Under the pieces are notes generated by a model. That model ran no database searches. It was not told where the DNA came from and was given only the letters and a program-made list of their open reading frames with translations. Made by a program: the position numbers and the translations under genes. A stretch of 26,770 nt of DNA from a virus: positions 1 to 26,770 of IMG/VR virus record IMGVR_UViG_3300020125_000122; one strand, written 5' to 3'. Position 1 is the first letter of the stretch. Every line of letters begins with the position of its first letter. Below are positions 18,568-24,599 of the stretch, one piece after another.

Positions 18568-19185
18568 TTTTCTCACCTTTGCTTGTGCACGCCGCAAAGC
18601 TGCCGGCGCGTTTTTCCAGCGGCTCACGTTCACGCGAGCCGCCATTGTCTTTTCGGGAGTGACCTCAGTGCAGTAGCCAAGCGCAAGCGCCTCGTCTGCG
18701 GTCATCCACGTTTCTTTGCTCATCGCTTCGAGCACATCGTCGAGAGCTTGCCCGGTGCGCTCCACGTAGATGCCGGCCAACATGTCGCGCATCTTGTCGA
18801 GCACGTCAGCTTGCTTGCGCAGATCGTCGCTCTCGCCGTCCACCCCGCCCGCCGGGTTGTGGATCATCATGAACGAGTTTTTCGCCATGCGGATTGTGTC
18901 ACCCGCCATCGCGATCACGCTCGCCATGCTCGCGGCGATTCCGGTAATGTCCACGGTGACGGGCGCCTTATGCGCGCGCAGCATGTTGTAGATCGCGAGG
19001 CCCTCAACGATGTTTCCGCCCTGCGAGCAGATCGAAACGTTGATGGCCTTCACGTCGGAATGCTTGGCGAGCGCGTCGCGCAGGTTCTGTGCGTAGAACC
19101 CGCCCATGCCGATCAGGTCATTGATGTCGACGTTCGCGACGCCCTTGGACACGGCGAAGAACGAGCGGCGTAACTTCGGCGTCAT
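17971..19185 (-). CDS. ClpP-like prohead protease with C-terminal scaffold (Mu I-like)
   Basis: A 404-aa, two-part protein starting at ATG 19185, which overlaps the portal stop as ATGA. Residues about 10-190 are a ClpP-fold serine protease: VSICSQGGNIVEGLAIYNML (oxyanion region), GIAASMASVIAMAG (catalytic Ser86 in G-x-A-A-S), then MMIHNPAGG with His109, and WMTADEALALGYCTEV. After residue 206 the chain turns into a helical, charged scaffold domain. The protease is thought to remove the scaffold during head maturation, as in Mu I. Both catalytic residues are visible; the third member of the triad is not assigned with certainty. Confidence 0.92.
   Translation of the reverse strand: MTPKLRRSFFAVSKGVANVDINDLIGMGGFYAQNLRDALAKHSDVKAINVSICSQGGNIVEGLAIYNMLRAHKAPVTVDITGIAASMASVIAMAGDTIRMAKNSFMMIHNPAGGVDGESDDLRKQADVLDKMRDMLAGIYVERTGQALDDVLEAMSKETWMTADEALALGYCTEVTPEKTMAARVNVSRWKNAPAALRRAQAKVRKMDEELIAQLGLEPGATKEEIAAALTVLQRAAAAAVKAGVADPEPDDDDDEEAPPKKKTAKARLEAQQALASNGNAAVLAAIAKLGKEIAAVAGRVDGSEREKLIAANLKKFTPALEAKARKWPMDVLRDFVADAVDVTSEDEEPTEEQAGARGARGAAKEITLDATARNVARQLGLTDEQMLEAKKADAKRNGLKVVA
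18574..18580 (-). promoter_or_regulatory. Strong RBS for internal scaffold start
   Basis: The minus-strand sequence AAAGGTG ends six bases before the ATG at 18567, inside the protease reading frame. It is stronger than the site at the protease start itself. It supports independent translation of the scaffold. Confidence 0.7.
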
Positions 19186-20558
19186 GGTATTTCCGGCTCC
19201 AATCCAGGCGGCCCCGGCGTGCCCGGTGGTTTAGGTGGCGTACGTGACGGCGATGGCGGCTCGACAAGTGGCTCGGCGTCAGCGTCGTCCTTGATCGGAA
19301 TGCCGAATGCTGAGGCCACTTTCTCGGCGTCTACCATCTTGCCCGACCGCTTCAGCGCTGCGTCGAGCTCTGGAATCGCGCGACCCACCGTCTCGAACGT
19401 CGTGGCCGTGCTCGCCTGCGAGTTCGTGCGCTCCGTATTCCAGTAGCCACACGGCGCGTTGGCGTCGTCGCCCGTGTTCACGCGCGCCCAGGGCTTCGTG
19501 CTGCCCTCGTGCAAGCACAGCGCGAACGCCTTGGCGAAATAGCGCGTAACGTCGCCCTTGATTTCGCCCTGCTCTTTGCCGCTTGAGAAGCCTGGGGAGC
19601 CGTCCGTCGTGACAGCTTGCGAGATGATCGCGATCGTCATCGCCGAGTCAGCCCAGTCGCTCGACTCGCTGAAAATCTCCCACGTGCGGCCCTTGGCCTC
19701 CACGAGGTTAAGCGCCCAACCGTCAGGCAGAACGATGCGACCGTTGCGACCGAGCGCGGTCAGCTGCTGAAGCAGTCGCAGGCGCTGTTTCTCGGTGCCG
19801 CCCTGCGTGCTCGTGCCGACCCAAGTGGGTGAGCCCACTACCTCGCCCTGGTTCGCGCGGTCCTCGATCGAGAAGCGTTTGACCAGCCACGGGAAAGCAC
19901 AGCTGCGCCACTTGCCGTCATTCCACGGGCGCGACTCGCCGTAAGGCAGGTAGAGAAAAAACTGACCGCCGGGAACGATCGCCTTCATCCCGGCGCGCGT
20001 CTGCAAACGCCAATGCGAGCCGCTCGTACCGGTGTGGTCGTAGTTCAGAAATCGCGGATGCCAGGTCTTCAGCCGGAACCGCTGCTGCTGCCCGAGCAGA
20101 CGCGGCAGCGGCACACGCTGACCCACGCCGACGCCGAGCATCGTTCCCCAGTTGTACAGCTTGCGGAGCTCAGGCTCCGGGTGCATCTGGTTCCACTCAC
20201 CGCCGGCTCCGAGCTGACCAGTACCCGCGAGCAGCTTAGTCAGCGCGTCCGAGCCCCCCTCGTACTGCAATGGCAGGCCGAATGTGCCGAGCGTGAGCGA
20301 CTGCAACACGCCCTCGATGTGGTCGTCACTGACCATCGCGTCGACCAGGTCCGCGAGCTGGAGCAGGTTGCCTAGGTCGGCATTCGCGCCAGCGACCGCC
20401 ACCAGGTCTGGGGTCCAGCCGGTAATCGATGGGCGAAACTGCAAGTCACGGGCTTTGAGCCCCGTGATGATTTCGCTCCCCTCGACAGGCGACGGCCCCT
20501 TGCTGCCGACCCGCGAAACGGGCTGCAACGGTGAGGCTAGGGCGCGCGCGCGGGACAA
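19182..20558 (-). CDS. Portal protein (Mu gp29/DUF935-like)
   Basis: A 458-aa protein forming the dodecameric DNA entry ring. Helical and beta patterns fit portals: LLQLADLVDAMVSDDHIEGV in the N-terminal part, LRKLYNWGTMLGVGVGQRV, then LKTWHPRFLNYDHTGTSG, FFLYLPYGESRPWNDGKWRS, and a long helix region with DSAMTIAIISQAVTTDG followed by VTRYFAKAFALCLHEGSTKP. The last 30 residues are proline-rich and probably disordered. The only start near the reading-frame opening is a TTG at 20558 (an in-frame TAA lies 21 bases before), and it sits inside a hairpin, so the start is uncertain. It is followed by the protease with an ATGA overlap, as in Mu. Confidence 0.9.
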   Translation of the reverse strand: MSRARALASPLQPVSRVGSKGPSPVEGSEIITGLKARDLQFRPSITGWTPDLVAVAGANADLGNLLQLADLVDAMVSDDHIEGVLQSLTLGTFGLPLQYEGGSDALTKLLAGTGQLGAGGEWNQMHPEPELRKLYNWGTMLGVGVGQRVPLPRLLGQQQRFRLKTWHPRFLNYDHTGTSGSHWRLQTRAGMKAIVPGGQFFLYLPYGESRPWNDGKWRSCAFPWLVKRFSIEDRANQGEVVGSPTWVGTSTQGGTEKQRLRLLQQLTALGRNGRIVLPDGWALNLVEAKGRTWEIFSESSDWADSAMTIAIISQAVTTDGSPGFSSGKEQGEIKGDVTRYFAKAFALCLHEGSTKPWARVNTGDDANAPCGYWNTERTNSQASTATTFETVGRAIPELDAALKRSGKMVDAEKVASAFGIPIKDDADAEPLVEPPSPSRTPPKPPGTPGPPGLEPEIP

Positions 20559-20566
20559 GGTGTCCC
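20552..20566 (-). promoter_or_regulatory. Hairpin over portal start codon
   Basis: GGGACA (20552-20557) and TGTCCC (20561-20566) form a perfect 6-bp inverted repeat around a three-base loop. In the minus-strand RNA, the portal's likely TTG start (56-58) and the GGGA that could serve as ribosome binding site both lie inside it. This could limit portal translation or be an operator-like site. Inferred from base pairing only. Confidence 0.4.
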
Positions 20567-20584
20567 AAGTGGTACGTTATTGTG

Positions 20585-20626
20585 TGGGGTGGGTCAAGTT
20601 GAACCCACTGGGTGGCTACGGACCCA
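20585..20626 (-). repeat. GGGT/ACCC hairpins before portal, related to the 1835 cluster
   Basis: GTGGGT (20589-20594) pairs with ACCCAC (20603-20608), and TGGGT (20609-20613) pairs with ACCCA (20622-20626). The 11-mer TGGGGTGGGTC at 20585-20595 is identical to that at 1835-1845. The left part lies in the gap between the methyltransferase-like gene and the portal; the right part overlaps the end of that gene. It may be an RNA structure or protein-binding element used at both ends of the structural cluster. Confidence 0.4.
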
Positions 20627-21178
20627 CACCGGAGCTTCGCGCGAGATAAATTAGCGCTGCCGCAAATTCCAGCGGTGTCGCAGATGATTCGACTTTTCCG
20701 AGCGTTGGTTTATTTCGATCGAACCATCCGCATTGATGCGTGCCGGGCACGCGCTCCCAGCGCAGATCGGTGGGCCTGGCTCCGCAGTAAAATAGCCATG
20801 TGCGCTTGCGTGCCCTGTGGCCGTAGGCGCTTTGCCAGACCTCACAGACCCACTCACGCGGGCCACCCGAGGAATTGGCAGCCCGAAATCATGAAACGCC
20901 CATGAAAACGCGGGATGCTCTAAAACTCCGCCGCACCTGCGCACCGTAGCAAGCGCCTCAGCAAAACATCCCCCATCGTTCCCGGGCCGGTTGTGCTCGC
21001 CTCCGTAACGCTTGAAATTGACGCGCGTCAGATTGGTCCAAAGCTGGCAGGGAGGATGTGCAACAACCGGATTCGCCCCCGCGTACTGCCGCGCGTCGCG
21101 CGCTTCGTCCCACGGGTCGACACCAGGCAAATCGAAATAAACGCCACCCGTGGCGACAAACAGCGCCGCGACGGTCAC
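20616..21178 (-). pseudogene. PPC-motif methyltransferase-like gene, frameshifted
   Basis: The GTG at 21178 overlaps the terminase nuclease stop as GTGA. Residues 38-50 hold VVAHPPCQLWTNL, a Pro-Pro-Cys motif reminiscent of cytosine-5 methyltransferases. Then NDGGCFAEALATVRRCGGVL and EHPAFSWAFHDFGLP follow. After LPIP the frame degrades and ends at 20651. In the -1 frame the family's normal C-terminus reads on cleanly: EWVCEVWQSAYGHRARKRTW, then PTLGKVESSATPLEFAAAL, ending at TAG 20616-20618. Restoring one G in the GGG run at about 20868 would join both halves. So it is either a real inactivation, a sequencing error or a programmed shift. No SAM-binding motif is seen, so methylation activity is doubtful. 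Confidence 0.72.
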
Positions 21179-21831
21179 GAGCCTACACCGGCACGCCTCG
21201 CCAAGTCAGCCGGCAACTCCCCCGGCAAATCGCGCATGTACTCCTCTCCGTACGGGTCCCGGTGCCGGTTTTTGCGCGCCATCCGTCGTTCCCGACCGGT
21301 CATCGTCGTTCCGTCCAAGAACCCGCGGTCACTCGCCCGCTCCAGCGCGTACACCGAAGCCACGAACGCCCGCGCACAGTCGCCATGGGACGACGCTTTG
21401 CGCGGGTGGTCGATGTGCACAACGCCATCCCGCCCGGGCTTGCCCACGGTCTCCTTGAGCTCGCTCACGAGCTGCTCACTCGCCGCGCTCAGGTCGATAC
21501 GGTGCGCGCCGAGCAGTACGCGCACGCGAACGAACGCATCGGCGATGCCGGCCGCATCGCTCGGGAACTCGACATGCTCCACGTCCTCATCCTCAGTCAC
21601 CTCGAGCACGGTCGCAAGATAGTGCGAGTCCGAGCAGTGGGACTCGGCGCCCCACCGTTCGATCTCGTGCATGGCCTCCTTGAAAACGATGCTTGGTCGT
21701 AGCGGGCGCTCGCCTGGCTTCCACACGCGCTCATGCACCACCGTGAACACGCCATCGGGATCGCCGCGCGTGAACACGAGTGCCGCACTGTCGCGGATGA
21801 ATGCGTAGTCTGCGCCGGCTACGGTGCGCAT
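21175..21831 (-). CDS. Terminase large subunit nuclease domain, separate gene
   Basis: A 218-aa protein that is only the C-terminal RNase H-like nuclease half of a large terminase. The ATG at 21831 directly follows the TGA of the previous gene. MRTVAGADYAFIRDSAALVF carries the first acid (Asp8, with Asp14 nearby). RPLRPSIVFKEAMHEIERWG leads to CSDSHYLATV with the second (Asp68). VRVRVLLGAHRIDLSAASEQ leads to HPRKASSHGDCARAFVASV with the third (Asp151). This order (GAD, DxHY, GHGD) is the recognised layout of terminase nuclease domains, which cut the genome at the end of packaging. It lacks any ATPase motif, which is in the gene at 22457-23545. The C-terminal 45 residues are basic and Arg-rich. 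Confidence 0.85.
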   Translation of the reverse strand: MRTVAGADYAFIRDSAALVFTRGDPDGVFTVVHERVWKPGERPLRPSIVFKEAMHEIERWGAESHCSDSHYLATVLEVTEDEDVEHVEFPSDAAGIADAFVRVRVLLGAHRIDLSAASEQLVSELKETVGKPGRDGVVHIDHPRKASSHGDCARAFVASVYALERASDRGFLDGTTMTGRERRMARKNRHRDPYGEEYMRDLPGELPADLARRAGVGS

Positions 21832-22038
21832 TCAGGCGCTCATCCGTCGCGACCTGCGTTGGCTGCTGCTAAGCGGAGCAGGGCCGACTGTGCGTTCTGG
21901 ACGCTTGTATCCACCGATAGCGTCCAACCGATCAAGCTCCAGTTCGATCATGCCGCCCTGATACGTGTCGCCGCTGAGGCGGCACTTGGTCAAGTCCGCC
22001 AGCAGCAGCAAGGCTCTCTCGGCCCGCATGCCCATCAC
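21832..22038 (-). CDS. Hypothetical 68-aa protein between terminase halves
   Basis: Starts at GTG 22038, overlapping the upstream stop as GTGA, and its TGA abuts the nuclease ATG. The N-terminus MMGMRAERALLLLADLTKCR is a short hydrophobic helix. GGMIELELDRLDAIGGYKRP follows, and a basic Ser/Arg C-terminus (SSSQRRSRRMSA) ends it. I see no domain. Its coupling to both terminase halves suggests a role with them, but this is inference. Confidence 0.62.
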   Translation of the reverse strand: MMGMRAERALLLLADLTKCRLSGDTYQGGMIELELDRLDAIGGYKRPERTVGPAPLSSSQRRSRRMSA

Positions 22039-22460
22039 ATGCTCTGCTTACGGTTCGGCCGAGCCACAGGACCATTCTTCGGCTCGCCTTCGAGCGCGCG
22101 CTTGGCGGCCTCGGCTTTCGCTTCTTCCGCGTTCGCCGTCGTTCGGTCCGCTACCTCGGCTTTCGACGCTTCGATCGCGGTAAGCAGCTTGCCGGAGAAC
22201 GCGAGCCCGGTCAGGTCGAGTTCTTCGAGCCCACAGGCAATGCGCCGGTCAACGGCCTCCACGAGCAAGTCTTCCGGGTTCTCGTGGCCGAGGTCACGCA
22301 GCACGCCGGCCAGGTGCGCGCGGTACGCGAGCCCGCTCACGATATCCTCTGGCTTGTCCTCGTCTTTCCAGTCAGCGATGCGTTGCTTTGCCTTCGCGAT
22401 GCGCTGCTCTTTCTTGCTCAGCTTGGGGGCGTCGTCGTGTTTTTGCGTCTCGGTGCTCAT
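22035..22460 (-). CDS. Helical 141-aa protein between terminase halves
   Basis: The ATG at 22460 overlaps the terminase ATPase stop as ATGA, and its own stop overlaps the next GTG. The protein is almost wholly helical and charged: KLSKKEQRIAKAKQRIADWK near the N-terminus, LAYRAHLAGVLRDLGHENPE in the middle, then KLLTAIEASKAEVADRTTAN and EEAKAEAAKRALEGEPKNG at the end, with coiled-coil character. There is no HNH, intein or intron motif. It is not an obvious terminase small subunit because no helix-turn-helix stands out, though a DNA- or protein-binding role in packaging is plausible. Function unknown. Confidence 0.65.
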   Translation of the reverse strand: MSTETQKHDDAPKLSKKEQRIAKAKQRIADWKDEDKPEDIVSGLAYRAHLAGVLRDLGHENPEDLLVEAVDRRIACGLEELDLTGLAFSGKLLTAIEASKAEVADRTTANAEEAKAEAAKRALEGEPKNGPVARPNRKQSM

Positions 22461-23545
22461 GATGCCTCTTCTCCTATTTCAACGTCTGACCAATCGTGGC
22501 CGAATTTCACTGCCTGCTCAATCAACATAGCACTGAAGAACTTCGTCTCGTCGCTCGCGAGCGGTACAGCCTTGTACGCGCGTGCCCAGCTCGGCGCGTC
22601 GGGCTCGAGCAAGTGCGTCTCTTCCTCGCTGATAAAATTGTCGTTCGCCACCCAAGTCGGCGCATAGAACGCGAGCTGAGCGGCGGTCTGCCCAAGCTCG
22701 AACATCTTGTGATGCTCGTCCAGCGTCGACCATGGCGCGCTGACGTAGTGAATCACCGCGTTGCGCATCGTGGCTGTGGTCGGCTTCAGACTGCGGATGA
22801 TGTCCGCGGCCGGGTTCGTGCCCTCCTTCTCGTCTCTCCAAATCGCCATTTCGTCGCACATCGCGCCGATACACGTGAACGAAACAACGCTCGTGATCGA
22901 AGCCGTGAAGCAACGGATCGCACGGTTCATTTTGCTGAACTCGAACGACTCGGCCATCGGCTTGCCGTCCACGCCGATCACGTCGCAGATCGCCTTGATG
23001 GTTACCACTCGCTCTTTCGCTTGCGGTCGCTCGGCGCTGATGATCGCGTAGACGCCCGTGTCGCCGGGCGGCACGTCGTGGTCACCGAACACGCATTCGA
23101 AAACCGCAACGCGGCAGATGGTCGTGCTCTTGCCGCCGCGTCTCCCAACGCGCCACACGCACGCGCGGCGCTGCTTGCGCGGACTGAGCAAGCGCTCGCG
23201 CATCACCCAGTTTGCGAAGTAGAACCGAGCAAGCCGCTTCTTCCACCACTCGGACATCGGAGGCCAGCCGGCAGCGTCGAGCTCGGAATTTATCCACGCC
23301 AGTTTCTCCGGCAGCTGCGGCACGTAAACCTCGCATGGCCCTAGCGGCGGCTCGTCCCGGTTGCCCTCCAACTCGATCCACGCCGAGCCGTCACCGTACA
23401 GCCGAACGCTGTCTAGGTCCGCCGCGCGCTCAAACGCGAACTCCCAAGCGAGCGCATGCGATTCGAGCAGCATTGAGCCAGCTCGGCGCGCCTTCGGCTT
23501 CGCGCCCTTGCGAGCGCGCGGCTTGGCGGTTCGCGGTTTACTCAC
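22457..23545 (-). CDS. terL: Terminase large subunit ATPase domain, separate gene
   Basis: A 362-aa packaging ATPase starting at GTG 23545, which overlaps the upstream stop as GTGA (longer starts run into the previous gene). Its N-terminal 22 residues are very basic. The motifs are Walker A VGRRGGKSTT (about 133-142), Walker B IGAMCDEMAIW with Asp231-Glu232, and coupling motif HYVSAPWST (about 266-274). It then has the usual bridge FYAPTWVANDNFISEEETHL and DETKFFSAMLIEQAV. The protein stops right there, where normal terminases (450-600 aa) continue into a nuclease. That nuclease is encoded 625 bases downstream as a separate gene. The gene drives DNA into the prohead, presumably with that partner. 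Confidence 0.9.
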   Translation of the reverse strand: MSKPRTAKPRARKGAKPKARRAGSMLLESHALAWEFAFERAADLDSVRLYGDGSAWIELEGNRDEPPLGPCEVYVPQLPEKLAWINSELDAAGWPPMSEWWKKRLARFYFANWVMRERLLSPRKQRRACVWRVGRRGGKSTTICRVAVFECVFGDHDVPPGDTGVYAIISAERPQAKERVVTIKAICDVIGVDGKPMAESFEFSKMNRAIRCFTASITSVVSFTCIGAMCDEMAIWRDEKEGTNPAADIIRSLKPTTATMRNAVIHYVSAPWSTLDEHHKMFELGQTAAQLAFYAPTWVANDNFISEEETHLLEPDAPSWARAYKAVPLASDETKFFSAMLIEQAVKFGHDWSDVEIGEEAS

Positions 23546-23874
23546 ACGCGCACCCGACCAGCCAACACATCCTCGCGCGTGATGAGGTACGGGCGGTTCG
23601 CCTCCTTCGCGCGCCTCGTCGCATCGTCGTCGAACAGCCCGACCTTCAGGAAATATTCCAGCGCATCCTGACGATGACGCGGGCCTGTGTAGTACGCAAT
23701 CGTTTGCGGGTCCGTGATTACGTCCTCGCTCACGTTCAAGTTTTTGAACGTCGCCCAAGCCTCCGCCATGTCGCGGTCTACGAAAAAGAACGCATGCGGT
23801 TTTTCGCATTCCTCCTCGTTCACCAACAATTCACCGACTCGCCAGCACTTCAGTCGCTCAGGTTGCTTAGCCAT
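23542..23874 (-). CDS. Hypothetical protein before terminase, small-subunit position
   Basis: A 110-aa protein starting at ATG 23874 (MAKQPERLKCWRVGELLVNE). Longer starts run into the preceding gene. The N-terminal half is compact with HAFFFVDRDMAEAWATFKNL and VSEDVITDPQTIAYY, and the C-terminal half has RHRQDALEYFLKVGLFDDDA then ANRPYLITREDVLAGRVRV. It is overlapped by the terminase GTG. A small terminase would be expected here, but I see no helix-turn-helix or coiled coil, so that role is only a possibility from position. Confidence 0.65.
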   Translation of the reverse strand: MAKQPERLKCWRVGELLVNEEECEKPHAFFFVDRDMAEAWATFKNLNVSEDVITDPQTIAYYTGPRHRQDALEYFLKVGLFDDDATRRAKEANRPYLITREDVLAGRVRV

Positions 23875-23881
23875 GCTTGGC

Positions 23882-24268
23882 TCACTTAACCGCCGAAAGC
23901 AGCGCCGCGGCCGCATAATACTGCGGGTTGGCCAATTGTTGCGCGCCCGTCTTCCCCCAGTTCAGTACCGCTGCCAGCGAAAGCATCGCGGCGACCCCGT
24001 AAACCAGTGCACGAAACCACAGCAACTCTTCGTCAATCATTGCCTTCTGCATCATGCGCACGAATAGCACGCCGCAAATCCAGATAGCAGCTAACGTTAT
24101 TGCGCACGCCGCTAGGTTCGCTATACCCTCGCTCTTCTGCTGCGCGACCGCAATATCCCATGCGTGTGGCGCTATCTTCTGCGCTGCGTCGGTCACTATT
24201 TTCACGCCGTTAGCGATGTGGTCGATAGCTTTCTCGGACGCCTCTGCAAAACTTGGATCACTCATCAT
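23882..24268 (-). CDS. Two-span membrane protein, holin candidate
   Basis: A 128-aa protein with GAGAGG before two adjacent ATGs (24268 and 24265, the second better spaced). It has a soluble helical N-terminus (residues 1-48), transmembrane segments NLAACAITLAAIWICGVLFV (about 51-70) and about 84-103 (WFRALVYGVAAMLSLAAVLN), and a short Ala-rich end. Charge and length are within the range of two-span holins, but holins lack a diagnostic motif and no endolysin lies in the window. It overlaps the end of the 113-aa gene. Confidence 0.62.
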   Translation of the reverse strand: MMSDPSFAEASEKAIDHIANGVKIVTDAAQKIAPHAWDIAVAQQKSEGIANLAACAITLAAIWICGVLFVRMMQKAMIDEELLWFRALVYGVAAMLSLAAVLNWGKTGAQQLANPQYYAAAALLSAVK

Positions 24269-24599
24269 CTTGCCTCTCGCTCAGGTTAACACGCGCGCGA
24301 GCGTAGTACCGGTCGCGCCTAATCTGTCGGTCAATCGCGCTCGCCAGGTCCTTTGACACATGCGGCTCGTGCGGCCGCGTCTCATGCACGCCAGTAATAC
24401 CAATGCGCATCGGTCGGCGCGGGCTCGTCGGTTCCGGCATCTCCACTCGGTAGTCTGTCTCCGGGTCCGCACCATACAACGGGCACAGCCCGAGCGCAGC
24501 GCGCAAGCCGTTGGCGAACACTTGCAACGCCTCAGCCTCGGCACTGCGTCCAGTGAAACGCGCAGGTCGCGACGGGTTAGCTATTCGCCTCGGCATCAT
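24258..24599 (-). CDS. Hypothetical 113-aa basic protein
   Basis: The start is at ATG 24599 (MMPRRIANPSRPARFTGRSA), overlapping the TGA of the 29-aa gene by four bases. The upstream part of the same open frame is a shadow of other genes. A helix EAEALQVFANGLRAALGLCP follows, then a polar Pro-rich stretch with ADPETDYRVEMPEPTSP, IGITGVHETRPHEPHV, and a basic C-terminus with SAIDRQIRRDRYYARARVNL. No domain is recognised. Its role is unknown. Confidence 0.65.
   Translation of the reverse strand: MMPRRIANPSRPARFTGRSAEAEALQVFANGLRAALGLCPLYGADPETDYRVEMPEPTSPRRPMRIGITGVHETRPHEPHVSKDLASAIDRQIRRDRYYARARVNLSERQDDE

Follow-up and report, generated by a model that had tools for sequence, protein, structure and literature searches.

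Group I introns break the large terminase (TerL) genes of the Jug phages (PMC12363816) and of ICP1 (PMC10448857), with splicing rejoining the pieces, and inteins sit in the TerL of Mic1 (PMC7156551). For another phage enzyme, ribonucleotide reductase, a homing endonuclease has split the gene into two working peptides (PMC10448857). Within open-licence papers, reports of split terL comprise intron-spliced or intein cases only, and we found there no description of a TerL encoded permanently as two unlinked domains (subscription papers lay outside this coverage). Here we describe a terminase locus in the viral record IMGVR_UViG_3300020125_000122 (a linear record of 26,770 bases in one contig, the whole of which is hereafter called the window), in which the two domains of TerL are not joined in one polypeptide but are encoded by separate open reading frames (ORFs) with two more ORFs between them. 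The arrangement is known from this single instance. The window is that of a Mu-like phage, with a Mu-type portal, an Mx4-like major capsid protein and a VapE-type replication protein. The genes of the terminase region all lie on the minus strand and are tightly packed, in the order ATPase, 141-residue gene, 68-residue frame and nuclease:

22457..23545, minus strand: TerL motor half (ATPase domain and start of the linker), GTG start, 362 residues
22465..22475, minus strand: Shine-Dalgarno-like AGGAGAAGAGG of the 141-residue gene, read from the sequence, lying within the 3'-terminal part of the ATPase gene
22035..22460, minus strand: 141-residue gene, family unassigned, product predicted all-helical, 15.4 kDa, isoelectric point (pI) 5.7
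21832..22038, minus strand: 68-residue frame (67 residues if it starts at ATG 22035), product basic, pI 10, unproven as a gene
21175..21831, minus strand: TerL nuclease half, a stand-alone RNase H/RuvC-like domain, 218 residues

The ATPase and 141-residue genes overlap in ATGA. At the next junction the GTG start of the 68-residue frame (22038) overlaps the preceding gene by 4 nt, in GTGATG; the alternative ATG at 22035 would give a TGATG overlap and the 67-residue product. An earlier note on this DNA had placed both ORFs between the terminase halves, each with a stop/start overlap. Their position and strand were as described, and the overlaps exist at these two junctions; the stop of the 68-residue frame and the ATG of the nuclease gene, however, merely abut, with zero overlap.

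The split itself is confirmed: the break lies in the interdomain linker and leaves two whole domains that keep their active-site residues. Both halves are colinear with one unsplit TerL, that of Virus Rctr16k. In single comparisons, the ATPase protein aligns to residues 39-292 of the Rctr16k protein (26% identity, E value 4e-11) and the nuclease protein to residues 306-470 (31% identity, E value 9e-25), the aligned parts being 13 residues apart. The ATPase protein also matches PHROG TerL families and is a P-loop ATPase with Walker A (G134, G138 and K139), Walker B (D231-E232) and a coupling motif (motif III, S269-P271), all invariant in an alignment of 11 sequences. In the nuclease, D8, D68, H149 and D151 are invariant (alignment of 10 sequences), and the acidic residues D8, D68 and D151 together with the fold match identify an RNase H/RuvC-like enzyme. 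The structure predicted for the nuclease from its alignment (predicted local distance difference test (pLDDT) 77, predicted template-modelling score 0.76) begins with a first strand at residues 2-8. It matches HK97 TerL in Foldseek (E value 2e-5) and superposes on Sf6 gp2 with Z 16.1 (root mean squared deviation 2.5 over 154 residues); Z is also about 16 for the nuclease domains of HK97 and G20c TerL, and the matches listed further include the TerL nucleases of T4, P74-26, E217 and SPP1. The nuclease ORF alone thus models as a complete TerL nuclease domain. Because the model starts at the first strand and matches solved TerL nuclease domains, the break can be placed in the linker, with a whole domain on either side.

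Alignment-based scans yielded 10 viral contigs with relatives of the nuclease, making 11 loci with Rctr16k; two of the contigs carry identical TerL proteins, leaving 10 distinct relatives. In all ten, the nuclease is part of a single ORF of 522-662 residues. The split is therefore derived, or at least exceptional here, and a two-gene terminase is apparently rare. Close-relative scans of viral contigs with the ATPase, nuclease, 141-residue and portal sequences gave no match, and scans of genome contigs with the nuclease alignments gave no relative. Two short PHROG families annotated as terminase large subunit hint at other TerL proteins of a single domain: phrog_7579 (239 positions) matches only an ATPase part, and phrog_5909 (285 positions) only a nuclease part.

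The locus could also be read as a terminase that is inactive or damaged, through decay of a prophage or an error of assembly. The gene that follows the nuclease gives this reading some footing. It belongs to phrog_12600 (20580-21178, minus strand; ORF 21178-20651) and carries a frameshift near 20870: the N-terminal part and a tail read in another frame match adjoining stretches of one Tortoise microvirus 37 region. The contig therefore holds at least one indel, either viral or introduced by assembly, and as a single contig it has no replicate. Yet the frameshift, whether an indel error or a broken gene, does not explain the insert in the terminase: 629 bp of coding-like DNA lying exactly at the linker is unlike the product of a sequencing indel. 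Both halves are also intact domains with their catalytic residues present, and their codon scores are coding-like (z 7.9 and 4.6 for the two halves against Markov DNA). We consider damage improbable.

An intron or intein interrupting terL, with the halves joined after transcription or translation, would bring the locus into line with the described cases. An Rfam scan of 20500-24300 at E values up to 1 gave no match and no group I or group II intron, and neither the 141-residue nor the 68-residue ORF matched a homing endonuclease (HNH, GIY-YIG, LAGLIDADG or similar) or intein family in PHROGs, Pfam or NCBIfam, in agreement with the earlier note, which had judged neither to be a homing endonuclease. 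Moreover, the insert is coding, with a ribosome site and stop/start junctions, and the nuclease ORF has its own ATG right at the first strand. An explanation by splicing is very unlikely.

The 141-residue ORF is clearly a real gene under coding constraint, because its codon score (0.297) exceeds those of all 77 shadow ORFs (maximum 0.212) and stands at z 5.6 against Markov DNA, and because the strong ribosome site AGGAGAAGAGG lies 4 nt ahead of its ATG. Its GC content (0.636) and codon use resemble those of neighbouring genes, and so give no sign of recent import. A single-sequence AlphaFold2 model (pLDDT 67) has helices at residues 16-30, 37-56, 62-75 and 90-124; the helical character proposed in the earlier note is thereby reproduced, at low confidence. 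The 68-residue frame is unproven as a gene: its codon score has z 1.7, an equally long open frame has a 15% chance of arising at random, and no ribosome site clearly belonging to it was seen. Neither protein has a convincing family match in PHROGs, Pfam or NCBIfam. The 141-residue protein has no homologue in viral contigs, phage records, plasmids or the full records of the relatives, with absence from the viral contigs being weak evidence since a single-sequence scan reaches close relatives only; fold searches with its low-confidence model retrieved nothing more specific than generic bundles of helices, the best at Z 7.4. For the 68-residue protein, phage records and viral contigs held no believable relative. 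Its sole database match runs antisense to a helix-turn-helix-like gene beside an integrase and was set aside as chance.

Our leading guess for the 141-residue protein is a small-terminase (TerS)-like or bridging packaging subunit. One of the options raised in the earlier note, that it could be the missing small terminase, found no support in profile, pairwise or fold comparisons. It matched no TerS profile in PHROGs, Pfam or NCBIfam, a weak test given the low sequence conservation of TerS (PMC9611059). The 15-21 kDa mass and mostly helical make-up given for TerS in the same review fit the protein (15.4 kDa, low-confidence helical model), although these are very common features. No helix-turn-helix family match was found in the protein, whose model was built without homologues; RcGTA gp1 is a helical TerS in which no helix-turn-helix was detected either (PMC6854486). 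In the stretch from the VapE gene to the portal, none of the genes compared with PHROGs matched TerS. The idea survives because of position, size, helicity and this lack of another TerS candidate. One further gene occupies the place that TerS takes in two of the relatives, directly upstream of TerL (phrog_4102 in both):

23542..23874, minus strand: 110-residue gene upstream of the ATPase gene, without a PHROG, Pfam or NCBIfam match to known function

Several observations weigh against a packaging role for the 141-residue protein. TerS lies upstream of TerL in the relatives, not inside it; in hhalign comparisons with TerS sets from relatives, the protein scored no better than its shuffled copies; no homologue, family, fold or profile ties it to packaging; and the arrangement comes from one genome only. 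Another gene, or one past the contig ends, could also be the TerS, since TerS may diverge beyond recognition. Phage genomes readily gain small orphan genes. The split terminase might thus work in trans while the 141- and 68-residue ORFs are passengers, accessory or host-takeover genes tolerated at the domain linker, an account with which the weakly coding look of the 68-residue frame, and the fact that no comparison links it or the 141-residue protein to packaging, would agree. Against passengers, the close coupling of the genes and the strength of the ribosome site point to an insert stably established in the operon, and the composition of the 141-residue gene is that of its neighbours. We regard passengers as a serious possibility that falls short of an even chance. 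The reading that we tentatively place first, itself short of an even chance, is that the large terminase consists of two polypeptides working together, with the 141-residue protein as a packaging subunit.

Under this two-polypeptide reading, stop/start coupling would lead to serial translation, so that the motor, the 141-residue protein, any 68-residue protein and the nuclease would be made together. The motor would dock on the Mu-type portal and pump DNA, and the nuclease would be recruited in trans for the initiation and headful cuts. The 141-residue protein would most likely, if tentatively, serve either as an adaptor between nuclease and motor or as an unrecognised TerS in which no helix-turn-helix can be detected. 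A fuller version, in which motor and nuclease are permanently unlinked, the 141-residue protein replaces both the domain linker and TerS, and the 68-residue protein is a fourth part, seems unlikely. If the halves do act in trans, the locus would offer a natural test of the signal by which the motor controls cutting by the nuclease, as these two lack the covalent linker credited with coordinating them, and the amount of each could be varied independently of the other. It would further reveal a place in which a small terminase can go unrecognised.

The surrounding genes place the terminase in its phage context. The major capsid protein is 34% identical to its counterpart in Myxococcus phage Mx4, and the portal gene lies downstream of the terminase region:

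19182..20558, minus strand: Mu-type portal protein (PF06074, E value 1e-37)

In 35 loci carrying relatives of this portal (21-36% identical), we detected no relative of the window TerL or of the 141-residue protein. Where the upstream genes were read and the record reached far enough, the portal relatives have other TerL types, each in a single ORF, pointing to exchange of terminase modules among Mu-like phages. Beside the VapE gene, a 60-residue Cys-rich protein (24864-24682, minus strand) with several CxC/CxxC motifs is likely, judging by these motifs, to be a small zinc-binding protein.

The closest known systems include the TerL genes of Rctr16k and the ten IMG/VR relatives, which share with the locus the ATPase and nuclease families, their order and the catalytic residues; these, unlike the window, have one ORF without internal genes, and two of them carry the phrog_4102 TerS upstream. 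RcGTA gp1 and the 141-residue protein are both small, helical and without a detected helix-turn-helix or recognised sequence relatives. However, gp1 was identified by position and genetics, with deletion showing its function, and its gene lies upstream of an unsplit TerL. The Jug phage and ICP1 terL genes are, as here, in pieces with other DNA between them, but those pieces are rejoined by splicing, whereas in the window no intron was found and both pieces form whole domains, each with a separate start. The split ribonucleotide reductase, like the terminase proposed here, is an enzyme essential to the phage that persists as two functional chains; its split was caused by a homing endonuclease, and none was detected in the window terminase.
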